Below are positions 5,968 to 20,551 of a stretch of DNA of 20,551 bases, piece after piece. Numbering within the stretch: the first letter of the stretch is position 1; every line of letters begins with the position of its first letter. Source of the stretch: a virus; IMG/VR virus record IMGVR_UViG_3300033156_000875, positions 1 to 20,551 of that record. The stretch is one strand, 5' to 3'. Under the pieces are notes generated by a model. That model had not been told where the DNA came from and searched no databases. It saw only the letters and a program-made list of their open reading frames with translations. The translations under genes and the position numbers were made by a program.

Positions 5968-7038
5968 ATGTATAGTAACAAGAAACTTCTGAGTAAAGCT
6001 CGAATGGTCGAGAAATTAACTTCGATTTCGGGCACACTGGTTGCTGAGGAGGCTGATGCGTTTATTACTTCCTTGGTCGATCAGTCAGTATTGAAAAATA
6101 ACTGCCGCATTATCCGAATGGATGGTGAGAAGAAAAATGTTCGGCATATTGGTTTCGGTTCCGGTAGATTTTTGAAACCGGCAGATTCGTTTAGTTCTTC
6201 AGATTATAAAACTACTTTTGATGATAACAAAATTGAACTGAACACCGAACATTTCCGTGGCGCTTATGCCATTTACGATGCTGATCTGGAAGATTACCGT
6301 GTAATGTCTGCAGAGGAATTTAAGACAACAGTTATGAACCTTATTGCGAAGCAAGTAGCCAATGAACTTGAGGAGATTGCATGGATTGCTGATGCTCACT
6401 CTTTGGGTGGCTTCTCTGATTCAGATGCAAGAAGTAAACTTGATGGGTGGAGATATCAAATTACCCACAGTGGTTCCGGCGAAACTTATGAGAATGATGT
6501 AACCGGTTCTGCTGTTATTCTTGATGCTTCTCTGGGTTCAGGCCATTCTACAGATTTTGATAAAGCAGGCGGGATCTCTGTATGGAACGACAGCATCAAT
6601 GCTTATGAGCATAAGTATCACAAAATGTATAAGAATTGGCCCAACGAGTATAAAGGAATTGATCTGTCCAACCTTAGATTTTGGAATCACGGGACAGTTA
6701 CAGCAGATTATTCGGAAGCCGTTGGCGGAAGAGCTACAGGTCTTGGCGATAAAGCACTTCAGGAAGGTAATATTCGGGTAGCTGCTGGTATTCCTATTGT
6801 TGATGCCAATAAAATGGCAATTACACTTGATGAATCAGGTGTGCTTGGTGGAGGTTCTTATACAGATGTTCTTTTGACCCCAGCCAAGAACTTAGTTATG
6901 GGAATCCAAAGGAGACTTACAATTGAGCCCGATCGAGATGCTGCAAACGAAAGAACTCTGTACTTCTTCAGTATTAGAGTTGATTTCAAAGTTGCAGATG
7001 TACGGGCCTGCGTACTTTGTAAAAACTTAACGTATTGA
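5968..7038 (+). CDS. Major capsid protein (HK97 fold)
   Basis: The shell subunit, 356 residues, directly after protease and scaffold and before the connector genes, as in most HK97-type heads. Supporting segments are the helical N-arm, FKTTVMNLIAKQVANELEEIAWI (spine-helix-like) and the C-terminal LLTPAKNLVMGIQRRLTIEP then RTLYFFSIRVDFKVADVRA, typical of capsid P- and A-domain strands. Assignment rests on position, length and these features rather than on one diagnostic motif. AAAGGA (5953-5958) precedes the ATG by about 9 bases. The codon use looks a little more GC-rich than that of neighbouring genes, which would suit high expression. A hairpin follows the stop. Confidence 0.9.
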   Translation: MYSNKKLLSKARMVEKLTSISGTLVAEEADAFITSLVDQSVLKNNCRIIRMDGEKKNVRHIGFGSGRFLKPADSFSSSDYKTTFDDNKIELNTEHFRGAYAIYDADLEDYRVMSAEEFKTTVMNLIAKQVANELEEIAWIADAHSLGGFSDSDARSKLDGWRYQITHSGSGETYENDVTGSAVILDASLGSGHSTDFDKAGGISVWNDSINAYEHKYHKMYKNWPNEYKGIDLSNLRFWNHGTVTADYSEAVGGRATGLGDKALQEGNIRVAAGIPIVDANKMAITLDESGVLGGGSYTDVLLTPAKNLVMGIQRRLTIEPDRDAANERTLYFFSIRVDFKVADVRACVLCKNLTY

Positions 7039-7062: not shown

Positions 7063-7090
7063 GTTAGGGGGCTTTAATTAGTCCCCTAAC
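7063..7090 (+). terminator. Stem-loop after major capsid gene
   Basis: The arms 7063-7073 (GTTAGGGGGCT) and 7080-7090 (AGTCCCCTAAC) pair over 11 bp with one G-U, around a 6-base loop. The 3' side is followed by CCTTCCCTTT rather than a run of T, so this is more likely an attenuator or mRNA 3'-end stabiliser than a strong intrinsic terminator. It sits 25 bases after the capsid stop and before a gene on the same strand. Confidence 0.6.
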
Positions 7091-7878: not shown

Positions 7879-8472
7879 ATGGGTAATTATATTTCAGCTA
7901 CAGATGTAAATAATTGGCCGGATGGATATACCACTGCCCAGAAAGACGCAGTTATAGAAAGGGTGGAGAGCTTAATCGAAAGGGTTACTGGGGATTACTT
8001 CTATGAGAAAAGTGAAGTTTTGAAACTGGATGGAAACGGTAGTAATAGGATATTTACAGGCAGAGCTCCTGATTTGCTTAGTATAAGTTCTATCACTGCC
8101 TATGGTACTTTAGTACCTTCAAGTGTGTATACTTTTGATGCACATTCGATTTATATGGATCCAGAATTAATTGTTGAAGATCCTGTTCTTGCAGTTGAAT
8201 ACTGGCATCTGTGGCCAAAAGGGAAGAACAATATTGTAGTTACTTGTACTATAGGTTGGAGTTCTACCCCAGAAGCTATTAAGAATGCAGCAGTTATTTT
8301 AGCTGAGGCAGAAAATGATAGTACACTATATTCTCGCTATAGTATGAATCAATCTGAGAGCACAAAAGATTATTCTTTCAAAAGATCTGAAAGATTTATG
8401 ACAGGAGTTCTGGAAGCAGATAGGATTTTACATTGGTACGTCAAAAGAGTACCACAACTTTGGGCAGTTTAA
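7879..8472 (+). CDS. Head-tail connector / adaptor protein (gp6/gp15-like)
   Basis: A 197-residue protein with the layout of phage adaptors that dock under the portal: a helical N-terminus (YISATDVNNWPDGYTTAQKDAVIERVESLIERVTGDYF, given here as its start and end), a beta-rich centre carrying Gly/Asp turns (LDGNGSNRIFTG, LLSISSITAYG), and a C-terminal helix rich in aromatic and basic residues. The 'GW...P..IK.A..ILAE' segment near residue 130 is typical of the family. AAGGA lies about 9 bases before the ATG, which starts 2 bases after the previous stop. Head closure and gp10-like genes follow, as expected. Confidence 0.82.
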   Translation: MGNYISATDVNNWPDGYTTAQKDAVIERVESLIERVTGDYFYEKSEVLKLDGNGSNRIFTGRAPDLLSISSITAYGTLVPSSVYTFDAHSIYMDPELIVEDPVLAVEYWHLWPKGKNNIVVTCTIGWSSTPEAIKNAAVILAEAENDSTLYSRYSMNQSESTKDYSFKRSERFMTGVLEADRILHWYVKRVPQLWAV

Positions 8473-8473
8473 C

Positions 8474-8788
8474 ATGCGACACTTATACAATCAAAAAATA
8501 GATGTAATTAGAATTACAAGAACTGATTCTGCCTTAGGTCCAGTAGAATCTGAAAGTACTTTACATAGTGACCTTCCTTGCCGTTGGATTTGGACACGAG
8601 GAGAAGAAAGAGTTGTTACAGGAAGAACCGGCAGGGAAAAAGAAGCTACTATACTTTGTGCAGTTGTAGATATAACAGCAAAGGATAGAATTATCTATAA
8701 TTCTGTTACTTATGAAATTTTTAGTGTTTTGAAACACGACGAATTTCAAAATCAATATTTGGAGATATCTGTCGGAGTTCTGCAGTAA
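8474..8788 (+). CDS. Head closure protein
   Basis: A 104-residue small beta-barrel protein of the phage head-closure (SPP1 gp16 / HK97 gp9-like) type, which seals the connector after packaging and joins it to the tail. Supporting features: the start MRHLYNQKIDVIR, a polar loop WTRGEERVVTGRTGRE, then alternating strands with a conserved-looking AKDRIIYNSVTYEIFSV (the 'gDri...g..y.I..v' pattern of this family) and a C-terminal beta-strand YLEISVGVL. It begins 1 base after the adaptor stop and its stop overlaps the next start (TAATG), so the four connector genes are translationally coupled. Confidence 0.8.
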   Translation: MRHLYNQKIDVIRITRTDSALGPVESESTLHSDLPCRWIWTRGEERVVTGRTGREKEATILCAVVDITAKDRIIYNSVTYEIFSVLKHDEFQNQYLEISVGVLQ

Positions 8789-9093
8789 TGCCTATTCGAA
8801 AAGATAATACTAGAAAACTTTTGAGTAAAATTGACGCAGAAATTCAAGATAGATTTCTTAAATCTGCTTTATTGGTTGAGCGCGATGCAAAGAGAAATTG
8901 TCCTGTCAAAACAGGAAGATTGAAAAGAAGTATTTCTCATATTATAGAGAAAGATAAAGCAATAGTTGGAACAAATGTAGAATATGCAAAATATGTAGAA
9001 GGGGGAACACGTAGGATGGCAGCACGGCCCTTTTTGCGCAAAGCATTATTTGACAATATTCATAAATTAAAACGTATATGGGGAGCTAAATAG
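8788..9093 (+). CDS. HK97 gp10-like head-tail joining protein
   Basis: A 101-residue member of the HK97 gp10 family. The signature is clear: CPVKTGRLKRSI (42-53), VGTNVEYAKYVEGGTRRM and ARPFLRKAL. These match the usual 'P..TG.Lr.Si....' and 'YA.yvE.GTr.m.a.PFl..A' blocks. The protein is small, basic and probably acts at the head-tail interface. Its start overlaps the previous stop, and its own TAG overlaps the GTG start of the next gene. GGAG at 8774-8777 lies 10 bases upstream. Confidence 0.92.
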   Translation: MPIRKDNTRKLLSKIDAEIQDRFLKSALLVERDAKRNCPVKTGRLKRSISHIIEKDKAIVGTNVEYAKYVEGGTRRMAARPFLRKALFDNIHKLKRIWGAK

Positions 9094-9500
9094 TGAAAGC
9101 ACTATTCAATGCTATCTACAGTAAATGGAATTCTTCTGTAAAGGATAGTGTATCAGGAATTACCTGTAAACTATACAATACAGAAGCTAATCCAGATGCT
9201 TCTTATCCGTATTGCGTTATGACAATAGTTTCTGATGTCGAAAACGGAACATTAACAGAAGTAATTGAGGATAATTTAATTCAATTTGCAGTTTATGATG
9301 ACAGTTCTACGGCGGAGAATGTTCTAGATATATTTGAAGCAGTAAAATCTGCATTTGATTTTGAAGATTTAACTGTTACGGGATACAAAAGCATAGGAAC
9401 AGACAGAGTAGGCGGAGCAAATCTTACTAAAATAACCGAAGAAGGTTCAAACTATTGGCAACTAATCTGTCAATATCGAATTAGAATTGAGGAAAATTAA
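9093..9500 (+). CDS. Tail terminator / tail completion protein
   Basis: A 135-residue protein in the slot of the tail terminator (lambda gpU, SPP1 gp17-like), which caps the tail tube and joins it to the head. The sequence fits: an N-terminal helix (KALFNAIYSKWNSS), ASYPYCVMTIVSDVE, FAVYDDSSTAENVLDIFEAVKSAF and the C-terminal strand YWQLICQYRIRIEE. This matches the 'P.Pyv....' / 'i.v.d.s...a..l...v...f' pattern of this group. It starts at GTG 9093 in a TAGTG overlap, with GGGAG (9081-9085) 7 bases upstream. A structured gap follows before the tube gene, so this probably ends the connector transcription block. Confidence 0.8.
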   Translation: MKALFNAIYSKWNSSVKDSVSGITCKLYNTEANPDASYPYCVMTIVSDVENGTLTEVIEDNLIQFAVYDDSSTAENVLDIFEAVKSAFDFEDLTVTGYKSIGTDRVGGANLTKITEEGSNYWQLICQYRIRIEEN

Positions 9501-9588
9501 AAGGGTATTTTAAGCTATGAGTGCAAGAGAAAAGCACTTATACGGGATGTATGTACCCCTAAAACAGTGAGAATAACCCTTTATTTTT
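9500..9588 (+). terminator. Structured intergenic region, possible terminator, before tail tube gene
   Basis: Outer arms AAAGGGT (9500-9506) and ACCCTTT (9576-9582) pair over 7 bp, extended by ATT/AAT past one bulged base, and are followed by ATTTTT (9583-9588). Inside is a 9-bp hairpin, 9516-9524 with 9534-9542 (one G-U, 9-base loop), then a small GGG/CCC hairpin (9544-9546 with 9556-9558 or 9557-9559). The shape is a three-way junction ending in T-run, so it may act as a terminator for the connector block. It contains the promoter-like element described separately. It has no T-arm or anticodon layout, so it is not a tRNA. Confidence 0.4.
9529..9550 (+). promoter_or_regulatory. Promoter-like element, copy A (+), before tail tube gene
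   Basis: GAAAAGCACTTATACGGG (9529-9546) is identical over 18 bases to the reverse strand at 18451-18468, and its 3' half TTATACGGGATGT recurs at 14382-14394. It lies about 58 bases before the tail tube ATG and points towards it. No convincing -35 box is seen 16-18 bases upstream of TATACG. The core CACTTATACGGGA is reminiscent of single-subunit phage RNA polymerase promoters (T7: CACTATAGGGA). Promoter function is inferred. Confidence 0.4.
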
Positions 9589-9603
9589 GAAAGGAACAGT
9601 AAT

Positions 9604-10038
9604 ATGGCTAATGCAGGATATAAGGGAAGATTGTACATAGATGATGTTCAAATTGGTGGAATAATGAATTGGAACTATTCCGGTGAGGAAAGAGAACTCC
9701 ATGAGGATAGTCCACTTGGACAGGAACATCACAGTTTTACTCCAGGCCAGTATGAAGGAGGGGAAATTACTTGTAGTGGTAATTGTTTGCTTGATTCTGA
9801 TACTGGTCAAAAAACCACTTTACGTGATGCATTTAGAAATGGTACTAAGTTAACCAACGTTAAGTTATACTACGACTATGACAATGAGTATTATTTAGAA
9901 CCAGATTCTTCATTAAGTCCCCCTTCGGGTGTTTACGTTACTAAGTATAATGAGGTAGCACTCGATAAAGGAGGACTTGTAACTATTAGTATCACAATGA
10001 AGGTTGAAGGCAGAATGAAAGACAGTTCGGAGAGTTAA
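9604..10038 (+). CDS. Major tail (tube) protein
   Basis: A 144-residue tail tube subunit. Evidence is position (after tail terminator, before tail chaperone and tape measure), size, and a beta-sandwich pattern: GYKGRLYIDDVQIGGIMNW at the N-terminus, GGEITCSGNCLL, VKLYYDYDNEYYLEP and LVTISITMKVEGRM at the C-terminus, similar to tube proteins that open 'A..G..g.lyi.g..vg...'. AAGGA (9591-9595) lies 8 bases before the ATG. It is preceded by its own promoter-like element and followed by a strong hairpin, in keeping with a separately controlled, highly expressed gene. Confidence 0.82.
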   Translation: MANAGYKGRLYIDDVQIGGIMNWNYSGEERELHEDSPLGQEHHSFTPGQYEGGEITCSGNCLLDSDTGQKTTLRDAFRNGTKLTNVKLYYDYDNEYYLEPDSSLSPPSGVYVTKYNEVALDKGGLVTISITMKVEGRMKDSSES

Positions 10039-10044
10039 TTGTAA

Positions 10045-10067
10045 AGGGGAGACAACGTGTCTCCCCT
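10045..10067 (+). terminator. Hairpin after tail tube gene
   Basis: The arms AGGGGAGACA (10045-10054) and TGTCTCCCCT (10058-10067) pair perfectly over 10 bp around a 3-base loop, followed by ATATTTCTT. It lies 6 bases after the tube gene stop and 31 bases before the chaperone gene. The stem is strong and GC-rich but the T-run is poor, so partial termination or mRNA protection is more likely than full termination, since the tail genes downstream need expression. Confidence 0.65.
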
Positions 10068-10098
10068 ATATTTCTTAACCCTTTAGAGGAGAAATGAT

Positions 10099-10491
10099 AT
10101 GTTCGATTTTAGTTCAAAGAATGAAGGAAAATGGTTTTATTTTGATCCTACAAATGAGGAAGCAGGTGGAATTTACATTCGAGTTTTGAATGCAGAAGTA
10201 GCAAATAAAATTTTCAAATCAACTACTAGGGAACGGAAAGATATTGTTGTCAATAATAGGTTATTTGAAAAACGTATCGGCGATGATGAGGCTGCTTATG
10301 CAAGACTCATTGATTATTGTATTGTAGATTGGAAAGGTGTATCCCTTGATGGAGAACCTCTAGAATGTACTACTCCTAATAAAGTAAAAATCATGCGTAA
10401 AAGTGTTACCTTTTCTAGATTCTATGATAAATGTATGGAAGAATTGGAGGAAGAAGTTTCTAGTTTGGAGTCAGCCCGAGTAAAAAATTAG
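10099..10491 (+). CDS. Tail assembly chaperone, short form (gpG-like)
   Basis: A 130-residue soluble protein between tail tube and tape measure, the fixed place of the tail assembly chaperone that coats the tape measure during tail assembly. It begins MFDFSSKNEGKWFYFDPTNE and carries GGIYIRVLNAEVANKIFKS, GVSLDGEPLECT and an acidic end (EELEEEVSSLESARVKN). AGGAGAAATGAT precedes the ATG, the leader style also used at 7466. The last codons GTA AAA AAT TAG hold a -1 slippery heptamer, and the -1 frame is open up to the tape measure start, giving the G/GT pair typical of lambda-like tails. Confidence 0.88.
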   Translation: MFDFSSKNEGKWFYFDPTNEEAGGIYIRVLNAEVANKIFKSTTRERKDIVVNNRLFEKRIGDDEAAYARLIDYCIVDWKGVSLDGEPLECTTPNKVKIMRKSVTFSRFYDKCMEELEEEVSSLESARVKN

Positions 10492-10865
10492 AAAATGCTC
10501 TCCGTTCTCAGATTGAGGATTGGGAGGGCATATGTAGAGAATGTAAAGAACTTTGGGGAAGGATAAACAAACCTACACCTTGTGATACCTGTTCCATTGA
10601 TAAAACCTTTAGTAATGTATTTCCATCTAATGAGGAAATTCTTAAGTTTTATAATATTTTACGGAGTCAACTTATAGTAAGTGGTTTAGGCGAACCAATA
10701 GCATTAAATTTCCCTGCTATTGAATCGGTTCTCAATATTTACGGAGTAGAACCCGAAGATCGGCCATACTATTTTGAAAATTTACTTCTTTGTTATAAAA
10801 TTGAAAAAGAAGTAGCAGAGGAGATGCGAAACCGTTCGATAATATATGAAGGAAAGAAAAAATGA
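10099..10865 (+). CDS. Tail assembly chaperone, -1 frameshift form (gpGT-like)
   Basis: The predicted frameshift product has 255 residues: 130 read in frame 0 up to 10488, then 125 in the -1 frame from TTA 10488-10490 to TGA 10863-10865. The extension begins LENALRSQIEDWEGI and contains C146-x2-C149 (CREC) and C162-x2-C165 (CDTC), a four-Cys set suggesting a zinc knuckle. It then runs on as a helical protein (LNFPAIESVLNIYGVEPEDR) and ends EGKKK. The -1 frame has no usable start codon before its last 15 or so residues, which argues that it is reached only by frameshift. Its stop overlaps the tape measure ATG (AATGA). In lambda the T domain recruits the tube protein while G binds the tape measure; the same division of labour is likely here. 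Confidence 0.85.
10482..10530 (+). promoter_or_regulatory. Programmed -1 ribosomal frameshift signal
   Basis: The heptamer A AAA AAT (10482-10488) sits in the right phase just before the frame-0 stop TAG (10489-10491). After a 7-base spacer, TGCTCTCC (10496-10503) pairs with GGAGGGCA (10523-10530) over 8 bp (one G-U). Within it TTCTCA (10505-10510) pairs with TGAGGA (10514-10519) around a 3-base loop. Slippery site, spacer and two-part stem match known -1 frameshift signals. Confidence 0.85.
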
Positions 10866-13324
10866 ACTTCCTATCTGCAAGTGTAGAGATTGATGTAAAT
10901 AAAGAAGAAGCACGGAGAGAAGTTACTGAAATTCAATCTCATTTCAAAAGAACAATAGAAAAGATGGAAAGACAAGCTCGTTCTATGTCTACAACTGTAG
11001 GAAGAGCTTTTAGGTCCATGGCTTCTGGAGCAATTGGAGCTTTTCAATCTATAGTTAGAAAAGCGAGATGGGCAGGACTTGCTATCGCAGGAATATTTGT
11101 AGCAGCAGTTCGAAAAGCAGCTATACAAGAAAAAGCTTTAGCCAATCTTGAAATTGTTTTAAGGTCGACCGGGCACGCTGCTAATTTAAGTAAGAAAGAA
11201 CTAGTAGATTTTTCTAGAGAATTACAAAGAATGACAATCTTTGGAGATGAAACTATTCAGAAAGTACAGGCTCTGTTACTGACGTTCAAAGATATTAAAG
11301 GAGATCAATTCAAAAGAACTACAAGAGCAATTTTGGATATGTCAGTAGCTATGGCTGCCGTAAATGGAACATCTGTTGATTTGCGATCCGCTACAATACA
11401 ACTAGGTAAAGCACTAAATGATCCAATTGCTAACCTTGGTGCTTTATCTCGTGCAGGAGTTCAATTTACCGAAAAACAGAAGGATATGATAAAAACGTTA
11501 TGGGAAAGTGGGAGAAAAACAGAAGCTCAGCGTATAATTCTTGCGGAACTTGAATCCCAATTCGGCGGAATGGCAAGTGAAACTGATACTCTTATAAGTA
11601 AACTGGAACAAATGAAGAATGCAGTTGGCGATGCCGCGGAAGCATTTGGTGAACCCTTTCTTGATCCTATAAAAAAAGCTGCTGATGCAATTAGGGATTG
11701 GGCAATAGAAAATGAAGAGAAAATAAATAGATGGGCAAGAATTCTTACCGAAAAAGTTGATCACGTTATAGAAAAAATTAAAGATTTATATCACGTGTTT
11801 GAAACAGAAGGATTTAAGGCGGGAATGGATATTGTTGGAAAGGAAGTAAGCATACTTCTTGCTGGGATTGTTGATTCTTTTGCAATTGCAGGTATAGCAG
11901 CAGGTAAGGCTTTTCTACGGGGATTAGGATTTGGTAAACCAAGTTCTAAAGAAATTTTTGAGCGTTGGGCTGAAGAAAGAGGTTTAACTCTAGAAGAAGC
12001 TAAGAAAAAAGGTACGTATATGCCCCCGGATGTTCGTAAACGGATAGAGCGGGAGCTTGTGCTAGAACAATTGCAGAAAGAAATAGGTGCAGTGGAATTA
12101 CTAGGAGCCGTATGGAAGCGTACTGGAGAAAAAATGAGGGAGGCTATTCCTCCAAGACCTACAGTAGAACAAAAGAAATGGGAAGTACCGGATGCTAAAT
12201 GGTTTGATGTTACTGCTCCTTTAAGTTTTGAAGGCCTCAATGTACAAGAACAAATTCAAGATGTTGAGAAAGCAAAAACAGAAAGTTATAATAGGTTGCA
12301 GGAATCTGGCGAACAGCTTCAGGAACAATTTAGGAAAGGAACAGAAGGTACAACTCAACATACTATTGAACAAACTCAAAAACAAGAGGAAGCTTATGGA
12401 AGAATGTTTGAAGCACTCATGGAAAAATCTTCAGAATATTATGATAAAAATAAAGAAGCAGCAGAAAAAGCAGAAGATGCAAGAGAAGAAGCAACCAATG
12501 CCATTTCCAGAATGTATGATGAAGTACAAAGTAAAGCAGAAGGTTATTATGATTGGGAAAGAGGAGTTATAGAAGTTCAAATTGACTCCTTTAGAAAAGC
12601 TATCGAACAAGCCGGAATGATGTCCCCTGCTATAGATGCACTTATTCAGAAGTGGGAGGAGTATAAATTAAAACAAATCGAAATTCGAGAAAGTGCCTTT
12701 GCTGCACTTATCCAGCCACTCGAAGAGTGGGGAGAAAGAGCAGGAAATATTTGGGAAAGAATTGGCGAGGCAGCTACTTCTACTTTAGACAATGTTACCG
12801 ATAAACTTGTTGATATGATAAATGAAGGAAAAGCAGATTGGAGAGAATTAGGTAGAACTGCTTTGAGAGCATTGGAGGAAATTCTAGTTAAAGTAACAAT
12901 GATAAAAGTTGCAATGGGAGCCCTTAATTTATTTGGAGGACTTTTTGGAGGACTTTTTGGTGGAGTTATGCCTGCCCCAACAGCATGGCCGGGCCAAACC
13001 GCTGCGTTAGCTCATACTGGTGGAACCGTAGGTGCATTAACTCAGAAAAGAAAAGTAAGTCCTCTCGCTTTTATAGGAGCAGAAAAATATCATGAAGGTG
13101 GTATTATTGGTTTGGCGGCAAACGAAGTTCCTATTATTGCAGAGAAAGGAGAAAGGATTCTTAAAAAAGGAGAATCTGCTCCTTCTATTAATGTCCAAGT
13201 GATTGATAATTCAACGAGAATGACTCCAGTAAGGCAAAGAACAAACTTGACTAAAGAAGGGATTCTCCAAATTATTCTGGAGGACCAAAATAATCCTAAT
13301 GGAGTCCTCCCTAAGATGGGTTAA
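10862..13324 (+). CDS. Tape measure protein
   Basis: The 820-residue ruler protein sets tail length and helps DNA entry. The N-terminus is a coiled coil (about 10-50), then a hydrophobic segment WAGLAIAGIFVAAV (70-83). A block typical of prophage tape measures (TMP_2-like) follows at about 90-245 (LANLEIVLRSTGHAANLS, ATIQLGKALNDPIANLGAL, RAGVQFTEKQ). Long charged helices run from about 450 to 620. Near the C-terminus are ALNLFGGLFGGLFGG (a second membrane-active segment) and YHEGGIIGLAANEVPIIAEKGERIL, the lambda gpH-like end. By the usual 1.5 Angstrom per residue rule the tail would be about 120 nm. AAGGA (10849-10853) lies 8 bases upstream. The + and - frames inside it are shadows. Confidence 0.95.
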   Translation: MNFLSASVEIDVNKEEARREVTEIQSHFKRTIEKMERQARSMSTTVGRAFRSMASGAIGAFQSIVRKARWAGLAIAGIFVAAVRKAAIQEKALANLEIVLRSTGHAANLSKKELVDFSRELQRMTIFGDETIQKVQALLLTFKDIKGDQFKRTTRAILDMSVAMAAVNGTSVDLRSATIQLGKALNDPIANLGALSRAGVQFTEKQKDMIKTLWESGRKTEAQRIILAELESQFGGMASETDTLISKLEQMKNAVGDAAEAFGEPFLDPIKKAADAIRDWAIENEEKINRWARILTEKVDHVIEKIKDLYHVFETEGFKAGMDIVGKEVSILLAGIVDSFAIAGIAAGKAFLRGLGFGKPSSKEIFERWAEERGLTLEEAKKKGTYMPPDVRKRIERELVLEQLQKEIGAVELLGAVWKRTGEKMREAIPPRPTVEQKKWEVPDAKWFDVTAPLSFEGLNVQEQIQDVEKAKTESYNRLQESGEQLQEQFRKGTEGTTQHTIEQTQKQEEAYGRMFEALMEKSSEYYDKNKEAAEKAEDAREEATNAISRMYDEVQSKAEGYYDWERGVIEVQIDSFRKAIEQAGMMSPAIDALIQKWEEYKLKQIEIRESAFAALIQPLEEWGERAGNIWERIGEAATSTLDNVTDKLVDMINEGKADWRELGRTALRALEEILVKVTMIKVAMGALNLFGGLFGGLFGGVMPAPTAWPGQTAALAHTGGTVGALTQKRKVSPLAFIGAEKYHEGGIIGLAANEVPIIAEKGERILKKGESAPSINVQVIDNSTRMTPVRQRTNLTKEGILQIILEDQNNPNGVLPKMG

Positions 13325-13326
13325 AT

Positions 13327-13683
13327 ATGGCAAATGCTTTAGTATTACCGGAGACAGAACACACTTGGAGCGAATCTCCTGTATATGATCCAACGTTAAG
13401 AACTCTTTTCAGTTCAGGAGATGAAGCAGCAAGACTAATAGTTGAATCTGAGGATGTTTACTATGAAGTAAATCTAACAGTAAAGTATATGACACTTTCC
13501 CAACTTATTGCTCTAGAAAATTGGGAAAAAGAAATTCTTATTGGAAGTGATACTTTTAGCTTTACTGATTGGAATGGAAACAATTGGACAATGATTTTGA
13601 TGGATCAAATTTCCTATGAAACAGTGAAAGCAAAAGAAACTTTATTCAACGCTTCAATAAAGATGTATGGGAGAAAAAATTAA
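13327..13683 (+). CDS. Minor tail protein, gpM-like
   Basis: A 118-residue beta-rich protein that starts 2 bases after the tape measure stop and ends directly before the gpL-like gene, matching lambda's H-M-L order. It shows LSQLIALENWEKEIL followed by TFSFTDWNGNNWTMILMD and a strand ending TLFNASIKMYGRK. This fits the small baseplate-hub 'distal tail' fold of M-type proteins (a strand pair, a helix that replaces the '...L..f......g...F.f.d..G..w.v...' pattern, then strands). Sequence likeness to lambda M is only moderate, so position counts for much of the call. Confidence 0.7.
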   Translation: MANALVLPETEHTWSESPVYDPTLRTLFSSGDEAARLIVESEDVYYEVNLTVKYMTLSQLIALENWEKEILIGSDTFSFTDWNGNNWTMILMDQISYETVKAKETLFNASIKMYGRKN

Positions 13684-14325
13684 ATGCCTATAGAAAATCT
13701 TCCTGAAGAATACTGGATCGAAAAAAATAAATTAGACCAAGGAGCTGCTTGGGTTTGGCTCCTCGATATTACCCTAACTGATGATACTACTTTTCATTTT
13801 GTCAACAATCCGACAGCTATAAAATATCCAGAAGGCCAATCTGGCGAAGTCGAATATACTCCTTTAGATTTTGCTATTGGGAATTTGGAGGATAAAAAAG
13901 GTGGGAATCTTGAGAGAACTATCTCAATTACAAATGAAAAACTAGTTGGAACACTACTTCCTTACTTTAAGGATTATAAGGGCTTAGTGGGAAGTACAGT
14001 TATTCTCACACCACTAAATACTGATTTTCCCGATATTGATTATTCAAGTAAAGCTGAAGAGTACGAAGTAATGTCTTCAACTATTATGGAGAAAAGAATA
14101 GATGTTCGACTAGGAACAGTTAATCCGTTAATGGATAGTATCCCGTCCCAAACTTATTTCGGAAAATTTTGTCGTTATTGTAAATATTTCAAACAGCCTC
14201 CATGCAATTACTCAGGAGAAGAAACTTCCTGCGATGGGACACTTAAAAGATGTAAAGAACTTGGCAATGAAGCCAGATGGGGAGGATTTATTTGCTTAAC
14301 TCCAAAAGCGGTTAGATTTTGCTAA
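13684..14325 (+). CDS. Minor tail protein, gpL-like, with Cys cluster
   Basis: A 213-residue tail-tip protein. Lambda gpL carries a [4Fe-4S] cluster at its C-terminus. Here the C-terminus has the same layout: FCRYCKYF, PPCNYSGEE, SCDGTLKRCKEL and RWGGFICL, with Cys at 163, 166, 174, 183, 190, 204 and 213. 'C.Y.G ... C.....C....N..RwGGF' is the family signature. The N-terminal two thirds form a beta-rich hub domain (WLLDITLTDDTTFHFVNN, IDVRLGTVNPLMDS). GGGAG at 13669-13673 lies 10 bases before the ATG. Cluster binding is inferred from homology; C204 and C213 exceed the four ligands needed. Confidence 0.9.
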   Translation: MPIENLPEEYWIEKNKLDQGAAWVWLLDITLTDDTTFHFVNNPTAIKYPEGQSGEVEYTPLDFAIGNLEDKKGGNLERTISITNEKLVGTLLPYFKDYKGLVGSTVILTPLNTDFPDIDYSSKAEEYEVMSSTIMEKRIDVRLGTVNPLMDSIPSQTYFGKFCRYCKYFKQPPCNYSGEETSCDGTLKRCKELGNEARWGGFICLTPKAVRFC

Positions 14326-14428
14326 TTTAAGTGCTTCTTTAATACTACCCCTATTATGATATACATTTTTAGTTTTTTCCATTATACGGGATGTCAGGGC
14401 CCTTAAATACAAAGATAGAGAAGGAGAA
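14326..14428 (+). promoter_or_regulatory. Intergenic region with promoter-like element, copy B (+)
   Basis: A 103-base gap in an otherwise tightly packed tail operon. TTATACGGGATGT (14382-14394) repeats the core at 9539-9551. It is followed by the palindrome AGGGCCCT (14396-14403), then TAAATACAAAGATAG and AAGGAG. This order (TATACGGG, AGGGCC, TAA, AAAGAT, AAGGAG, ATG) is also seen on the - strand before the 18410 gene. The GGG lies 41 bases before the ATG at 14429. TTTTTAGTTTTTT (14366-14378) precedes the core. Promoter function is inferred. Confidence 0.4.
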
Positions 14429-14812
14429 ATGAATAATAAGGAATTATATTCTGATTTAATTGGTAAACCATATATTGATGGGGAAAGGAATTGTTGGACG
14501 TTTGTAAAAGAAGCTGCTGAAAGAGTAGGTATTTTTCTTCCAGATTACTCCGTTCCTGATAACCATGAAGAGTTAACTTCACTCATTAACTCGGAAAAAC
14601 ACGCCTATAAGAAGATTAACAAACCAGAACCTCACTGTTTGGTTTTATTCCGAATCCCATACCCTCGTAAAAGACTTGGTTGGCATGTAGGTTTTATGAT
14701 TGATAATACTCACTTTATTCATTGTACACGAAGAAATGGAGTAAACATAACTTCAATCAACAACCCACTTTATTTTTTGTTGCGTGAAGGTTTTTACAAA
14801 TGCAAATCATAA
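14429..14812 (+). CDS. NlpC/P60-type tail peptidase, gpK-like
   Basis: A 127-residue cysteine peptidase of the NlpC/P60 fold, equivalent to the C-terminal domain of lambda gpK. It probably cleaves peptidoglycan stem peptides or acts in tail-tip assembly. The catalytic Cys is C22 in RNCWTFVKEAA and the His is H86 in WHVGFMIDN. H98 (HFIHC) is the likely third polar residue. There is no JAMM (Mov34) domain, which is fused in lambda gpK, so this is the peptidase domain alone. AAGGAG (14421-14426) is only 2 bases from the ATG, but no other start fits. The gene overlaps the J-like gene by 13 bases. Confidence 0.9.
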   Translation: MNNKELYSDLIGKPYIDGERNCWTFVKEAAERVGIFLPDYSVPDNHEELTSLINSEKHAYKKINKPEPHCLVLFRIPYPRKRLGWHVGFMIDNTHFIHCTRRNGVNITSINNPLYFLLREGFYKCKS

Positions 14813-17800
14813 TTCAAAAAAATCCATTAGACCCAAAAGAAAGAGAAATTATTACTACTCCTTCCAATGGGAGAACTGTGGAGGAGATAATTAAATCTTT
14901 TGATTTTCTAGATATAGAAAAAACAAAAGCTCATGTAAATGGATTTCCTCTCGAAAAATTCCAATATGAACTTTGGGTAACAGCAGAGAATGATTTAATT
15001 ACTCTTGTTCCGGAAGTGGAGGATCCTATATCATTAGGCTTCGCCTTATCTAATATGTTATTTACAGGGGCAACAGCAACTTTTCTTGGTGGAATTGGTT
15101 TAAGCGCAGCTATTGGTTACGGAATGTATGTAGGAGCCGGAGCATTAATGCGTGCACTAGGACCAAAGCCTGAGGAACAGCCTGATATTTCTGCTTCTCC
15201 AACATATAGTTTCAATCAAAGAACACTTCAACAAGAAGGAATAAAAGTTCCAAGAGTGTACGGAAAAATTCTTACTCCGGGCAATGTAATAAGTTCTTGG
15301 ACTGTTACTTCGAGTAAAACTGAAAGGTTAAAAGGTGTAATAGCATTAGGTCGAGGTCCTCATAAAGGAATAGTAGAAGGGAGTATACGAGTTAATGATC
15401 AGGTTGCGGATAACTTCCCTGGTTTTACTACTTATGAAAGAAAAGGCACGATTGAACAGACGGCAATATTTAGTGAGGAAAAAGTTGAATTTCGTCCAAA
15501 TCGAGAAGTAAAGAATTCTAAAGGGCCGGTAACTTGGACAACTCCACATAATAATTTTGATAAATTAGAAATTACTCTAGAGTATTCAGGATATTACTAT
15601 GATAAATCAGGGGCTTTGACAACTCCCGACGTTGATATTCAAATTGAAATTAGTGAGCATGGGAAAAACGATTGGCACAATTTAGTCAATGGCTATGAAG
15701 TTTCTTGTCATCCAACCAAGAAATATAAGACATGGGTAAATACTGGAAACTATTATGGCGGAAGTCCTGTAACAATTGAAAATGGAAAGTCCTACGATAT
15801 TAGAGTTACAAAGAAGGATCCTGACAGAAATGAATCAAACTGGAAAAATTATATCGGCATTCACTCTATTCGAGAAGTTCATGATATTGCGTTCAAACAT
15901 CCTGAAGTAGCTCTACTGGGATTTTCAGCTTTGGCTTCTGAACAATTGAACGGAAGTCTTAAAATCACTTCTGTTTCAGAAGGCAGAGTTATGCTTGTAT
16001 ATGACGGAAGTTCTTGGAACATAGAATACTCCAATAACCCGGCTTGGACAATTATTGACTTACTTTGTCGCCCAGTAATTAAGGGGAAAGGTTCTCCAGA
16101 AGATCCTTATACCGTCGAAAGGTATGAAGGTGTTGATTTGTCAAGAATAACTCCTTATTTGGAAAATTGGTATGATTATGCTCAATGGTGTGATGAATTA
16201 GTTGATGATGGGGAAGGAGGAACCGAAAAAAGAATAACATTCAACGGATTATATGATAAAGTAGATAATATTTGGGATGCTATTAATCAAGTTTGTTTTG
16301 TTGGAAGGTGTGAAGTTCATCGAAGAGGAATTAATTATGACGTAATAGTGGATAAGAAATGGACTACAGCCCCTGTTCAATTATTCAGTGCAGGAAATAT
16401 GATTCCCGGAACATATAAAAGGGAATGGATCAGTGAAAAGGAGAAAATCAGTGAACTTGAAGTTACATTCATGGATGAGAAGAATGGGTATGAACTTACT
16501 CCTATATCATACGTTAATACACATGTAAACAGTGGGAAGAAGAAAAATCTCAAAGGTTTAGGAATAACTTCAGTATCGCAGGCTTGGAGAACTGCATACT
16601 ATGAATTAGCTAAAAACCAAGTAATCAATTCTATCACCACTTTTGATACCGATATTGATGCCTCAACTATCTCCAAAGGCGATGTTATTAGAATAATTCC
16701 TCCAGAGGAATCGGGCGGAAGAATAGTTGCTTATCATAGTGCAAGTGACATTAACAAAGAAGATGATATAATTGTTGTGGATAGGGATTTAACTGATTCT
16801 GATTCAGATACCATATTAGTCAGAATGCACGATCCAGCTACTAATGAGGATGTTGTTGAAACTCATACAATCAAATCAATTGAAAACAATTGGGTTACTA
16901 TAAATGGTACTTTTACAGTACAGCCATCAGAAGGCGATCTTTACGGATTTATCCCGACTTCCAAACTAGAAGAATTCAGAGTAATTGGAATAACCCATCA
17001 CGGGGACATGAAACATACTATCCAAGCAGTCGAGTATTCTGATGATGTTTACTTAGGCGATGAAGGAACACCTACTGTACCAATTATCGGATATAATAGT
17101 CCCGAATCTAATCCGACTCCAAACTTTACAAAACCCATCTCTCTAAATGATATAAGAACTTTGATTGGTGGAGAGGACATCGAAAATCGAGAGCCTAGTA
17201 TGGATATTCCTTGGAGGAGTAATCTTGAGTTCGTTAGTAACTATCCTTCCGCCGGTTATGTTAGTTGGAGAAATAAAGATTATGGAGGAGACGATACTCC
17301 AATAGTAATCTCCTTTGAGGATGAACATTATGAAATTCCACTGAGTAATACGGATGAGAAATATATTTACTGGGACGTAACTGATCCTGAAGAATTCAAA
17401 GTAACAAGTACTTTATCTGATATAACAAATTATCCGGGAGAAAGATGGATAGTATGTGTAAATGATAACGGTACTGCAATTCCAACTGTAAGCATGAGTT
17501 CGTTACATGGAGGCTTAATTCAGGCAGGTACGATTACAGCGGAATATGGGCAGATTGCTGATGCAGCAATTACAAGTGCAAAGATTGCTTCGGCAGCAAT
17601 AACATCCGCAAAGATTGCTGATGCAGCAATAACATCCGCAAAGATTGCTGATGCAGCAATAACATCCGCAAAGATTGGCAATCTCCAGGTTGAGTCTGCT
17701 CATATAAAAAATTTGACGGTCGGTACGAACAAGATAGCAAACAATGCGGTGTCTTTTTGGGACGCAAATTCTGAGACTACAGTGGAAGAGGTAGGCGATT

Positions 17801-18114
17801 CGGCTTACGTTGACATATTGACTCTCACTATCACTACAACAGGAAAGCCAGTGTTGTTAACATTCAACGTCAATTATAGAGCATCTGCCGGTGATGCTAA
17901 ATGTAAATTCAGAGTTTTGGAGGACAGTACAATATTATTTACATCACCTTACGATTTGTATGTTACTGCTACGGGAGAGTTGAATTTCAACTTCAGCCTG
18001 AGAAGAACATCATCTGCCGGCGAACATGTTTTTCATTTTCAATGTAGGGCCGGACCAGGAAGCACAGTCTTATGCAGCGTAAGGTCTATCGTTGCTGTAG
18101 AACTTAAAAAATAA
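14800..18114 (+). CDS. Central tail fibre / tip attachment protein, gpJ-like with gpI-like N-terminus
   Basis: An 1104-residue tail-tip protein. Residues 1-72 look like a ubiquitin-like beta-grasp (MQIIIQKNPLDP ... NDLITLVPEV) and 78-120 are a hydrophobic, Gly/Ala-rich segment (LGGIGLSAAIGYGMYVGAG). Together these resemble lambda gpI, here fused to J. From about 140 the J-type hub begins (QRTLQQEGIKVPRVYGKIL) and continues through FHKPEV-like and DLLCRPV-like regions and fibronectin-like parts near 780-900. Residues 919-958 are four 10-residue repeats (IADAAITSAK), likely a beta-helical or triple-helical stalk. The last 130 residues form a beta-sandwich, the probable receptor-binding tip. GAAGG (14786-14790) lies 9 bases upstream. 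No separate gpI gene is present, which supports the fusion. Confidence 0.92.
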   Translation: MQIIIQKNPLDPKEREIITTPSNGRTVEEIIKSFDFLDIEKTKAHVNGFPLEKFQYELWVTAENDLITLVPEVEDPISLGFALSNMLFTGATATFLGGIGLSAAIGYGMYVGAGALMRALGPKPEEQPDISASPTYSFNQRTLQQEGIKVPRVYGKILTPGNVISSWTVTSSKTERLKGVIALGRGPHKGIVEGSIRVNDQVADNFPGFTTYERKGTIEQTAIFSEEKVEFRPNREVKNSKGPVTWTTPHNNFDKLEITLEYSGYYYDKSGALTTPDVDIQIEISEHGKNDWHNLVNGYEVSCHPTKKYKTWVNTGNYYGGSPVTIENGKSYDIRVTKKDPDRNESNWKNYIGIHSIREVHDIAFKHPEVALLGFSALASEQLNGSLKITSVSEGRVMLVYDGSSWNIEYSNNPAWTIIDLLCRPVIKGKGSPEDPYTVERYEGVDLSRITPYLENWYDYAQWCDELVDDGEGGTEKRITFNGLYDKVDNIWDAINQVCFVGRCEVHRRGINYDVIVDKKWTTAPVQLFSAGNMIPGTYKREWISEKEKISELEVTFMDEKNGYELTPISYVNTHVNSGKKKNLKGLGITSVSQAWRTAYYELAKNQVINSITTFDTDIDASTISKGDVIRIIPPEESGGRIVAYHSASDINKEDDIIVVDRDLTDSDSDTILVRMHDPATNEDVVETHTIKSIENNWVTINGTFTVQPSEGDLYGFIPTSKLEEFRVIGITHHGDMKHTIQAVEYSDDVYLGDEGTPTVPIIGYNSPESNPTPNFTKPISLNDIRTLIGGEDIENREPSMDIPWRSNLEFVSNYPSAGYVSWRNKDYGGDDTPIVISFEDEHYEIPLSNTDEKYIYWDVTDPEEFKVTSTLSDITNYPGERWIVCVNDNGTAIPTVSMSSLHGGLIQAGTITAEYGQIADAAITSAKIASAAITSAKIADAAITSAKIADAAITSAKIGNLQVESAHIKNLTVGTNKIANNAVSFWDANSETTVEEVGDSAYVDILTLTITTTGKPVLLTFNVNYRASAGDAKCKFRVLEDSTILFTSPYDLYVTATGELNFNFSLRRTSSAGEHVFHFQCRAGPGSTVLCSVRSIVAVELKK
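17554..17673 (+). repeat. Four tandem 30-bp repeats in the tail fibre gene
   Basis: The units start at 17554, 17584, 17614 and 17644, each coding for I-A-(D/S)-A-A-I-T-S-A-K. Units 3 and 4 are identical in DNA; units 1 and 2 differ at a few bases. A fifth, degraded unit starts at 17674 (IGNLQVESAH). Such repeats are common in J-type fibre stalks, and the near-identity suggests recent copy-number change. Confidence 0.95.
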
Positions 18115-18170
18115 AAAAGGGATAGTATGAGATTATCTAATTTAGGTATTTGTGGCGACGGAACCATACT

Positions 18171-18410
18171 TTATAACCTTTCATTTCTCCGTGGAAGAAG
18201 GGCAAGGATGCCTCTTCCATTTACAAACAAAAACTTTAAGAAAAAATTAATTCCTATTGGAACATTTGGCATTTCATCTAACTCATCTGAAATAATTATA
18301 GGTTCCAAAGTATCCTCTGAATTAATTGGAACATTTGGCATTTCCTCGTTCAAATCTTCTAGAGTATCCTCTGAATTGATTGGAACATTTGACATATCGT
18401 CTTTACACAT
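18171..18410 (-). CDS. Small acidic repeat protein, function unknown
   Basis: A 79-residue protein beginning MCKDDMSNVPINSEDTLEDL. It has two and a half copies of a unit NVPINSEDTLE in 18- and 23-residue spacings, rich in Asp and Glu, then a hydrophobic/basic end (INFFLKFLFVNGRGILALLP). AAGGAGG lies about 7 bases before the ATG, a near-perfect ribosome-binding site, and the 60-bp repeat with promoter-like element lies just upstream. Both support this strand over the overlapping + frame 18127-18438. Repeat lengths (54 and 69 bases) keep the frame. It faces the fibre gene tail to tail. No function can be assigned; the C-terminal hydrophobic part could touch a membrane. Confidence 0.6.
   Translation of the reverse strand: MCKDDMSNVPINSEDTLEDLNEEMPNVPINSEDTLEPIIISDELDEMPNVPIGINFFLKFLFVNGRGILALLPRRNERL
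18256..18395 (-). repeat. Imperfect tandem repeats inside the small acidic gene
   Basis: A unit of about 33 bases (+ strand AGTATCCTCTGAATT, then ATTGGAACATTTG) occurs at 18309-18341 and 18363-18395. A partial third copy, ATTGGAACATTTGGCATTTC, is at 18256-18275. Offsets are 54 and 69 bases, both multiples of three. They encode the NVPINSEDTLE repeats. Confidence 0.85.
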
Positions 18411-18437
18411 CCCTTCCCTCCTTACAATCTTTTATTA

Positions 18438-18468
18438 GGCCCTTTCAGTGCCCGTATAAGTGCTTTTC
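18438..18468 (-). promoter_or_regulatory. Promoter-like element, copy E (-), before acidic gene
   Basis: Read on the - strand, GAAAAGCACTTATACGGG (18468-18451) is identical to 9529-9546 on the + strand. It is followed by CACTGAAAGGGCC, TAATAAAAGATTG and AAGGAGG. The GGG lies about 43 bases before the ATG at 18410, almost the same distance as in copy B. The element overlaps the end of the 60-bp repeat. Confidence 0.45.
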
Positions 18469-18516
18469 CTTCCCCGACCCCTAATTTACCCTACCTAATA
18501 ATAGTTCTTTAATTAT
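18457..18516 (-). repeat. 60-bp perfect direct repeat, copy 1
   Basis: It is identical base for base to 18845-18904. It lies in the gap upstream of the acidic gene. Read on the - strand it starts ATAATTAAAGAACTATTATT and ends GGAAAAGCACTTA. Outside the 60 bp similarity continues weakly (TATAGGGTA here, TTTACGGGATA in the other copy). Non-coding on both strands as far as I can see. Confidence 0.97.
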
Positions 18517-18530
18517 AGTACCCTATAACC

Positions 18531-18543
18531 GCCCTCAGAGGGC
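18531..18543 (-). terminator. Weak hairpin after the 71-residue gene
   Basis: GCCCT (18531-18535) and AGGGC (18539-18543) pair over 5 bp with a 3-base loop, 12 bases past the stop of the - strand gene at 18556. There is no T-run on the 3' side (- strand GGTTATAGGG), so termination is doubtful. The TATAAT-like string just beyond (- strand, about 18518-18513) is the only sigma70-like -10 in this gap and lacks a -35. Confidence 0.3.
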
Positions 18544-18555
18544 CTCAGAAAACTT

Positions 18556-18771
18556 TTATTTGTACGGTCTATACGGATATAGTGGACATGCCAGATCCGT
18601 ACAATTTCTAATATCAGAAGCAAAGGAAGAAGCATAACCTATGCACTCAAGACAGAAAGCATTTACTCCAGCTCTAAGACTTCTCCCTTCCATAGCTTTT
18701 TCATATTTTTCCTTATGATGTTTTGGTATTTGTTTCAATCGTTCCATAATTTGTTTTTGTTGCTTATTCAT
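18556..18771 (-). CDS. Small four-Cys phage protein
   Basis: A 71-residue protein with a basic helical N-terminus (MNKQQKQIMERLKQIPKHHK) and a C-terminal Cys cluster: C40-x2-C43 (FCLECIGY), C57 (IRNCTDL), C62 (ACPLYPYRPY). The pattern 'a....C.eC.g......vr.C....CPLyPyR' is one I recognise from many small uncharacterised phage proteins, where it probably binds zinc. The ribosome-binding site is modest (AGAGGGA about 7 bases before the ATG). The second copy of the 60-bp repeat and a hairpin leader lie upstream. Function unknown. Confidence 0.8.
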   Translation of the reverse strand: MNKQQKQIMERLKQIPKHHKEKYEKAMEGRSLRAGVNAFCLECIGYASSFASDIRNCTDLACPLYPYRPYK

Positions 18772-18814
18772 CTTTTCCCTCTTATTTTAAGAAGCTGAAT
18801 GACGTGTCCCGCAA

Positions 18815-18840
18815 AAGGCCCATAAAGGGCCTTATACGTG
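18815..18840 (-). promoter_or_regulatory. Promoter-like element, copy F (-), with leader hairpin
   Basis: On the - strand AAAAGCACTTACAAG is followed by CACGTATAAGG (18840-18830), a diverged form of the element. The arms AAGGCCC and GGGCCTT (18833-18827 and 18821-18815) pair over 7 bp around a 5-base loop and are followed by TTGCGGG. The element lies about 60 bases before the ATG at 18771. It is the weakest of the four copies and is recognised mainly by its place next to the repeat. Confidence 0.35.
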
Positions 18841-18844
18841 CTTG

Positions 18845-18904
18845 TAAGTGCTTTTCCTTCCCCGACCCCTAATTTACCCTACCTAATAATAGTTCTTTAA
18901 TTAT
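18845..18904 (-). repeat. 60-bp perfect direct repeat, copy 2
   Basis: It is identical to 18457-18516 at an offset of 388 bases, and lies in the 189-base gap between the methyltransferase stop and the small four-Cys gene. Both copies are upstream of a - strand gene and in the same orientation. An entirely conserved 60 bp in non-coding DNA implies recent duplication or functional constraint. Confidence 0.97.
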
Positions 18905-18960
18905 CTATCCCGTAAAGCCCCTTTTATCACGTTAGATTCGAAGATATAATCTTATTTTGA

Positions 18961-20551
18961 TTAATGTTGATAAAGTTTTATTGTATCCTTTAAAAATCCA
19001 AATTTATAAACACCTTCTCGCATCCTTTCCTCAAATTTCTTATAAAGCTGTACAAAGTTATTATACTGATTTGAGTACTGTTTCTTGAATAAAGGTTTTA
19101 ACTGTGCCCAACCAGCATCCCAGGCCTGTAAGTGCCTTTCGGGATGCTTTTTATGATACTCTTCTCTTTTGGCCATACTGGCCCGTATTAGATTTTGCGC
19201 AGCTTCCAAAACAGCTTTTGCATCAGGAGATAAGGGAGTAGATTGTAATAAAGTATAAACGTATCTATCTTTTTCATCCCTAACATCTTGCATCATTTCT
19301 CTAAAGGAGTATTTTTCAGCCAGTTGTTTCATCTCACTATTTGATAGGAAGAAGAATTCATTTTTTATGTCCCAAAGTTTTCCTTTGTATTTAACTTGTC
19401 GGAGGGAGGATTGTTGACTAAATAGTGAGTATATGATAGCATCATTATTCCATTGTTCATAGTCGGGATGAGAAGTATTATTGGGAGGAGAAGGACGATC
19501 ATTGAAAGTATACCATTTTACTTGTGGCGATCTTAATCCAGTATAAACTGAAGCACAAAATTTAAAATTTTCTTTACTTACTGGAATACAATTCCCTGCT
19601 ACTCCAGCTCCTGAAGTGAAATAACCAGAGGTTTTTGCAGTTCCAATATCATGACACGCAAGTTTGTTCAGTGAACCAAAACTTTCTTTATTATATAAAT
19701 TGGTTGACCCTGTGGAAAGTTTTAGTGCAGAAGATAATCGAGGGGAATCAAACTTTGTAAGTTCAAATTTACTCTGTCTTTTTACCCAACAACTTAAGGA
19801 TACATTTTTATACTCATGAAAAGTTTTTTTACCTATTTCTACTACTTTTCCTTCTCTTACTTCTCTAATTGGAAAAGTTTTCTTATTTGCTCCTTTTACA
19901 TTGCTTCGCCATATAACAAAAGTAACGGCCCATGATGCCACTAATCCAATAAAATCATCTGAAGGGAATAGAAATCCTGATACTGATGTAAAATTTGAAT
20001 ACAATTTCTTTCTTAGTTTATGAAAGGATCTATGCGTCATATATTTGGATGGTGCAATAATACCCATTACAATTTCTGTTTTTGGATATTTTTCCTTGAA
20101 CTGTAAAATTTTGAAAATAAATTGAGCATATAATTCTCCGGCACAACCTCCCATTTTGTTTCTTTTCATTTCAGTGTTTACTTCATTTCCAGTAACTTGT
20201 TCTTCCATATCCTTAATTAATCCAAATCGACCTCGACAACCATTACTTCTTCTATAAGGTGGATTAAGTAAAAAGAAAATTTTTCTTCCTTCTTTGAAAG
20301 CATTTTTCAAACCTAGAGGAACTCCTTTAGTTCCAGAACCTAATTCACCTATTGTATTTGGTATCGGACACTCACTTAGAAAATCATATTGAAAGATTTC
20401 CTTAGCTTCTCGATTATAGCCTGCGGCTTTAATGTCATTAATATCTCCTTGCTCCAACGTACTGAGATATAATTCCTTAAATTTATAATCGCGCGTAAGG
20501 TTGGCTGTTCCACAGCAACAATCCCAAACAACCCATTCATTCTTCCAATTT
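18961..20551 (-). CDS. N6-adenine DNA methyltransferase (5' end beyond window)
   Basis: The reading frame runs open to the right edge, so the gene is truncated at its 5' end; at least 529 residues are present. The SAM-binding motif I is VVWDCCCGTANLTRDY (window residues 7-22), followed by an acidic motif II/III region (STLEQGD, FQYDFL) and the catalytic motif IV NPPY (96-99), the gamma-type N6-adenine signature. GIIAPSKYMTHRSFHKLRKK and FLFPSDDF resemble later motifs. The C-terminal 200 residues (HPDYEQWNNDAIIYSLFSQQ, WDIKNEFFFLS, QAWDAGWAQLKPLF) are a helical region I associate with large phage methyltransferases and may hold target recognition. A TTG at 20457 is not the start, since motif I lies upstream. 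It probably protects phage DNA from host restriction. No restriction enzyme is seen beside it. Confidence 0.88.
   Translation of the reverse strand, partial: NWKNEWVVWDCCCGTANLTRDYKFKELYLSTLEQGDINDIKAAGYNREAKEIFQYDFLSECPIPNTIGELGSGTKGVPLGLKNAFKEGRKIFFLLNPPYRRSNGCRGRFGLIKDMEEQVTGNEVNTEMKRNKMGGCAGELYAQFIFKILQFKEKYPKTEIVMGIIAPSKYMTHRSFHKLRKKLYSNFTSVSGFLFPSDDFIGLVASWAVTFVIWRSNVKGANKKTFPIREVREGKVVEIGKKTFHEYKNVSLSCWVKRQSKFELTKFDSPRLSSALKLSTGSTNLYNKESFGSLNKLACHDIGTAKTSGYFTSGAGVAGNCIPVSKENFKFCASVYTGLRSPQVKWYTFNDRPSPPNNTSHPDYEQWNNDAIIYSLFSQQSSLRQVKYKGKLWDIKNEFFFLSNSEMKQLAEKYSFREMMQDVRDEKDRYVYTLLQSTPLSPDAKAVLEAAQNLIRASMAKREEYHKKHPERHLQAWDAGWAQLKPLFKKQYSNQYNNFVQLYKKFEERMREGVYKFGFLKDTIKLYQH

Follow-up and report, generated by a model that had tools for sequence, protein, structure and literature searches.

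What is the sequence that recurs in the gaps ahead of several genes of this phage fragment, on both strands and facing the gene that follows? The window, i.e. the whole stretch of DNA that was analyzed, is a 20,551-base IMG/VR virus record, a fragment of a phage genome (G000) that, judging from its sequence, appears to derive from an uncultured siphovirus-like phage with its late module on the plus strand (Table 1). A preliminary description had reported a promoter-like element in four of its gaps. The 18-mer GAAAAGCACTTATACGGG indeed has two exact matches, at 9529-9546 (+) and 18468-18451 (-), compared to 0.03 expected from shuffles, and there is no further match in the stretch when up to 3 mismatches are allowed. 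The partial recurrence reported at 14382 was also recovered, with TTATACGGGATGT exact at 9538 and 14382 and copy B reading TTATACGGG(ATGT) at 14382 (+).

Table 1. Coordinates of genes, gaps, repeat copies and direct repeats in the window.
Feature	Position	Strand	Remarks
Terminase	676-1986	+	
Capsid	5968-7038	+	
Tail terminator	9093-9500	+	
Gap A	9501-9603	+	before major tail tube gene
Copy A, GAAAAGCACTTATACGGG	9529-9546	+	core TTATACGGG at 9538
Dyad A, TTATACGGG N9 CCCCTAAAA	9538-9564	+	7/9 complementary
Major tail tube gene	9604-10038	+	gap A precedes
Tape measure-like	10862-13324	+	
Gap B	14326-14428	+	before NlpC/P60 tail gene
Copy B with dyad, TTATACGGG ATGTCAGGG CCCTTAAAT	14382-14408	+	6/9 complementary; spacer N9
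NlpC/P60 tail gene	14429-14812	+	gap B precedes
J-like	14800-18114	+	
79-aa gene	18171-18410	-	gap C precedes
Gap C	18411-18555	-	before 79-aa gene
Copy C, GAAAAGCACTTATACGGG	18451-18468	-	
60-bp direct repeat, copy 1	18457-18516	-	100% identity; ends inside element C
71-aa gene	18556-18771	-	cysteine motif, ...CPLYPYRPYK; between both 60-bp repeats; gap D precedes
Gap D	18772-18960	-	before 71-aa gene
Copy D, diverged core GTATAAGGC in strong hairpin	18811-18837	-	AAGGCCC TTTAT GGGCCTT, then TT
60-bp direct repeat, copy 2	18845-18904	-	100% identity
Methylase-like gene	18961-20550	-	weak Eco57I match

The repeat formed by A, B and C is real. Local alignment of all gap pairs revealed similarity among these three that was significant in gene-facing orientation only (sense orientation: A-B, 1/500 shuffles; A-C, 0/500; B-C, 0/500), in agreement with the earlier proposal of a gene-oriented regulatory element in gaps. 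A 9-mer common to A, B and C in one gene-facing orientation arose in 3/5000 dinucleotide shuffles, and the longest A-C match is 18, compared to a maximum of 13 in 5000 shuffles. Conservation is one-sided, extending from the upstream flank through the core, with 18/18 positions identical between A and C and 12/12 between A and D (GAAAAGCACTTA). Copies B and C, labelled B and E before, share the leader order that had been described, TATACGGG, AGGGCC, TAA and AAAGAT, followed by the AAGGAG ribosome-binding site. The distance from GGG to the start codon was found to be about 39-59 nt, which replaces the 41-60 bases given previously. The longer motif has no copy with ≤2 mismatches within the genes of the window, whereas the short core TTATACGGG also occurs once antisense within a gene, at 4437 (minus). 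The gaps longer than 95 nt are those that hold the copies; after the capsid and tail tube genes, where the gaps are shorter, hairpins are present instead.

The genes downstream of A, B and C, the copies with an intact core, all score as coding. For copy C the codon statistics gave 0.211 for the 79-aa minus-strand ORF, among the values of real genes, and -0.001 for the overlapping plus-strand ORF 18127-18438, together with non-coding frames, indicating that copy C precedes a real gene; the plus-strand ORF, which would make C antisense, was rejected as non-coding. A conserved leader peptide was also rejected: A and B read in frame as LYGMxxPL peptides, but C stops immediately, and D and the corresponding gap of the closest relative (G001, see below) have no start codon. 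Imperfect repeats at 18256-18404 (-) in the 79-aa gene encode MPNVPINSEDTLE.

The fourth copy, D, is of a different standing. A diverged form is present as described, with the core GTATAAGGC at 3 mismatches from the motif, a level which also occurs inside genes. However, both C and D are part of an exact direct repeat, 60 bp long, which had been overlooked, implying that D is a duplicated leader rather than independent support. For A, B and C, location in a gap and on the strand of the following gene was confirmed. The two 60-bp copies flank the 71-aa gene, whose product has relatives in other phages. The identity stops inside the element (GCACTTA), and the flanks beyond are wholly different. 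The 24-base heart of the 60-bp repeat has no match in IMG/VR, and neither inspection by eye nor a promoter scan gave a convincing host promoter within the repeat. Its sense strand carries several G-runs (GGGTAAATTAGGGGTCGGGGAAGG), a possible G-quadruplex sequence. An exact duplication of this kind is gap DNA that has been copied, as would be expected if the copies were short mobile or degenerate repeats spread by recombination, with no regulatory role. Yet the intact copies all face the downstream gene at a similar distance from its start, and the longer motif is absent from genes at the level given above, making this explanation highly improbable.

We consider it an even call, on sequence grounds, that the repeat is a phage-specific promoter/leader cassette duplicated together with a cargo gene. 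In such a cassette the AT-rich core TTATACGGG, usually following AAGGAAAAGCAC, would constitute a -10-like or factor-specific site, recognized by a phage-borne or host factor and read toward the next gene, with a short G-run/C-run dyad and then a Shine-Dalgarno leader downstream of it. The block has been copied as a unit, as seen from the exact 60-bp copy flanking the 71-aa gene, and would thereby also have provided a homology patch for the gain or loss of cargo genes. That transcription starts at the core, and that a factor recognizes it, we infer. This reading is favored because the conserved part is one-sided, oriented to the gene and present in few well-conserved copies, as in 7-11, phiEco32 and Xp10; furthermore, conservation from the upstream flank through the core is not symmetric as that of a pure stem-loop would be, and a 60-bp repeat flanking one gene is as expected of a mobile leader cassette. 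The phage-specific promoters of 7-11, phiEco32 and Xp10 were found as low-copy, strongly conserved, gene-oriented gap repeats, for which pairwise gap alignment, the type of comparison also applied to the present gaps, worked while multiple-alignment methods did not (PMC4331800). The likeness lies in the low-copy conserved gap motif facing the next gene and in the short AT-rich core; on the other hand, the core of phiEco32 is TAATGTATA, and for those phages the gene of the sigma factor or polymerase has been identified, whereas none was found here (PMC4331800).

Several results speak against a promoter cassette. Copy A lies within a long operon, where a promoter is not strictly needed. There is no canonical -35 box at A, C and D, as had been stated, although B retains a partial match, TATACA (4/6), and no -35/-10 hexamer pair of a host sigma-70 promoter at 16-18 bp spacing was found at any of the copies A-D. 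Searches for sigma-70 regions 2 and 4 (PF04542, PF04545) gave no match in the window and five relatives (G001, G004, G005, G009 and G014), considering that Pfam can miss divergent factors. For a T7-type polymerase (PF00940), a gene that the preliminary description had suggested looking for, the same six sequences, of which two are 56 kb long, were likewise empty, and the positive control in the same search, gene 1 of the T7 genome, was matched at 1e-109; these absences are informative for the relatives and weakly so for a 20.5-kb fragment. A T7-type single-subunit phage RNA polymerase promoter with its start at GGG, as proposed earlier, was attractive in that the copies lack a canonical -35 box and in that CACTTATACGGGA resembles, by eye, the T7 CACTATAGGGAGA. 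With no polymerase match in six sequences, no such gap repeats in the relatives and the TATA not kept in the closest of them, the proposal is very unlikely to hold; the case for it is weak, and only a polymerase gene in the full genome would justify retaining it.

The closest record, G001, is 15.5 kb long and has a capsid 80% identical to that of the window. Ahead of its tail tube gene is an orthologous gap, whose global alignment with gap A beats 300/300 shuffles and which keeps GAAAA, AAG, TTA, the G-run and the C-run followed by TAAA. The core in this gap is TTACAGGGG, without TATA, which counts against a promoter cassette as well as against the T7-type reading. No gap sequence comparable to that of B is present at the corresponding position in G001. 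Synteny extends to G004, G005, G009 and G014, which are related more distantly (G004 and G014 are each 56 kb long), but their gaps have neither CTTATACGGG nor a comparable repeat, and a matching gap repeat is absent from the relatives found by terminase, capsid and tail tube; the missing equivalent is a further point against a promoter cassette. In IMG/VR, AAAGCACTTATACGGG gave four matches only, in unrelated viruses and apparently within genes. There are no close isolates, and isolate relatives are remote. The sole capsid relative in the genome collection (L054 10001-11059) has 36% identity and lies on a contig binned as a Thermoplasmatota archaeon; the contig may stem from an archaeal virus or from a phage and be mis-binned. 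In G014 the terminase at 8381-11572 (-) (L042) is 1064 aa long and contains a large insertion, probably an intein, that starts with CLGGEQLIYDPVEK.

The core named in the preliminary description was confirmed, but a dyad overlapping it had gone unnoticed. With the core at its left arm, the dyad is loose and spans 27 bp (TTATACGGG-N9-CCCYTAAAW); it is present in A and B (Table 1), in C (TTATACGGG-N9-GGCCTAATA, 4/9 complementary), in D (GTATAAGGC-N9-GCCTTTTGC, 7/9) and in G001 (TTACAGGGG-N9-CCCTTAAAA, 6/9). The dyad could indicate a DNA operator, which the preliminary description had named as an alternative next to an activator-dependent host promoter. Two half-sites of about TWTANGGG would form an inverted pair separated by 9 bp, for a phage repressor or regulator acting near start codons, comparable to mycobacteriophage stoperators or extended start-associated sequences. 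In A and B the inverted WTANGGG sites have identical 9-bp spacing. In the 765 gap bases WTANGGG was counted 13 times, compared to 20 times in ~19.8 kb of genes, which makes it ~17-fold denser in gaps, and 300 shuffles of the gaps gave a mean of 2.8 and a maximum of 8; as the word was picked after viewing the data, the enrichment is a suggestive observation and does not amount to a test. Ahead of start codons, imperfect inverted repeats with no assigned function have been described (PMC3203893). Nevertheless, the dyad symmetry is poor in C, conservation is much lower in the right arm than in the left, and no repressor gene was recognized in the fragment, making an operator somewhat unlikely.

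Repeats of mycobacteriophages offer further comparisons. The SAS/ESAS of Cluster K are short gene-oriented repeats before start codons, approximately half of which contain an inverted repeat that is imperfect and has a spacer of 4-13 bp, and resemble the present copies in position and orientation and with regard to the loose dyad; however, the SAS is a 13-mer, GGGATAGGAGCCC, tied to translation start and to the non-structural half, whereas here the core lies 39-59 nt upstream and is also found in the structural operon (PMC3203893). Cluster O phages have gap dyads, and Corndog gene 14, like the 71-aa gene, is flanked by a short direct repeat, but their >30 near-invariant 17-bp palindromes have no meaningful orientation, whereas the copies here are few and oriented (PMC4351075). 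The stoperators of Cluster A, 13-bp repressor sites mostly in one orientation relative to transcription, share with our copies the orientation to transcription across the genome and differ in being the sites of a repressor, which was not recognized in this fragment (PMC6550527).

Alternatively, the dyad could act as RNA, i.e. as an attenuator, RNase site or mRNA-stabilizing leader, in which case the common letters would be the stem and its flanks. Strong hairpins are formed in D (-14.7 kcal/mol) and in the G001 gap (-11.2 kcal/mol), with nearly all shuffles weaker, and the hairpin in C is modest, but A and B form local hairpins no more stable than those of shuffles. As a whole, gap A folded better than most shuffles (z -2.3), and gap C had z -3.3, whereas gap B folded worse than shuffles (z +2.0). 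A search with the dyad pattern returned G001, a built-in control, and otherwise unrelated phages, where the pattern appears as hairpins in gaps, as a stem-loop would predict. Conversely, A and C are conserved at least 9 nt upstream of the dyad, and no Rfam family matches near the copies. A terminator with a stable hairpin and U-run in every copy was not found either; a stable hairpin followed by a short T-run is seen in D only. An RNA stem-loop is therefore a rather unlikely explanation. The capsid and tail tube genes are each followed immediately by a strong hairpin, at 7063-7090 and 10045-10067 (+), respectively, with counterparts after these two genes in G001; the hairpins likely serve as partial terminators or protect the mRNAs of the two most abundant proteins.

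Returning to the promoter/leader cassette, a more specific form would be a mobile one, in which a non-canonical promoter for an undescribed phage transcription factor is combined with the G-run dyad, controls structural and accessory operons and recruits genes by homologous recombination between copies; we hold this version to be somewhat unlikely. Cassettes of the T4-type PeSL kind were reportedly set out by Arbiol in 2010 and Comeau in 2014. T4-type PeSLs are described as a promoter-like block plus stem-loop in gaps, duplicated and thought to mediate gene shuffling (PMC4503421, PMC4177764). The 60-bp duplicated leader flanking one gene is alike, and the duplication around one small gene fits gene transfer together with the leader, as in the T4-type cassettes (PMC4503421). 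The 60-bp block around the 71-aa gene and the strong stem-loop of D would suit such a cassette, while the early promoter recognizable in the T4 blocks has no recognizable equivalent here, and there is one duplication only.

If the repeat is a promoter, the lineage would use a transcription factor that is unrecognizable from sequence, and the copies would offer a direct handle to find it; otherwise they are ordinary phage regulatory DNA. The duplicated leader around a small gene is a clear snapshot of how a phage may acquire a gene plus its control region. In kind, the feature is already familiar, a lineage-specific phage intergenic regulatory repeat that is genuine but ordinary.

Other parts of the window showed features of their own. 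For the methylase-like protein there is no match in phage isolates, but IMG/VR contains 49 relatives with identities of 30-60%, many of them in very large contigs. The J-like gene has 30-bp tandem repeats in its C-terminal part, at 17552-17671 (+), which encode AAITSAKIAD units. TAAAAAATTAG marks the end of the gene at 10099-10491, and the -1 frame relative to that gene, which lacks a start codon, stays open as far as 10861; the interval 10480-10861 (+) is a probable site of programmed -1 frameshifting that gives a tail assembly chaperone pair.
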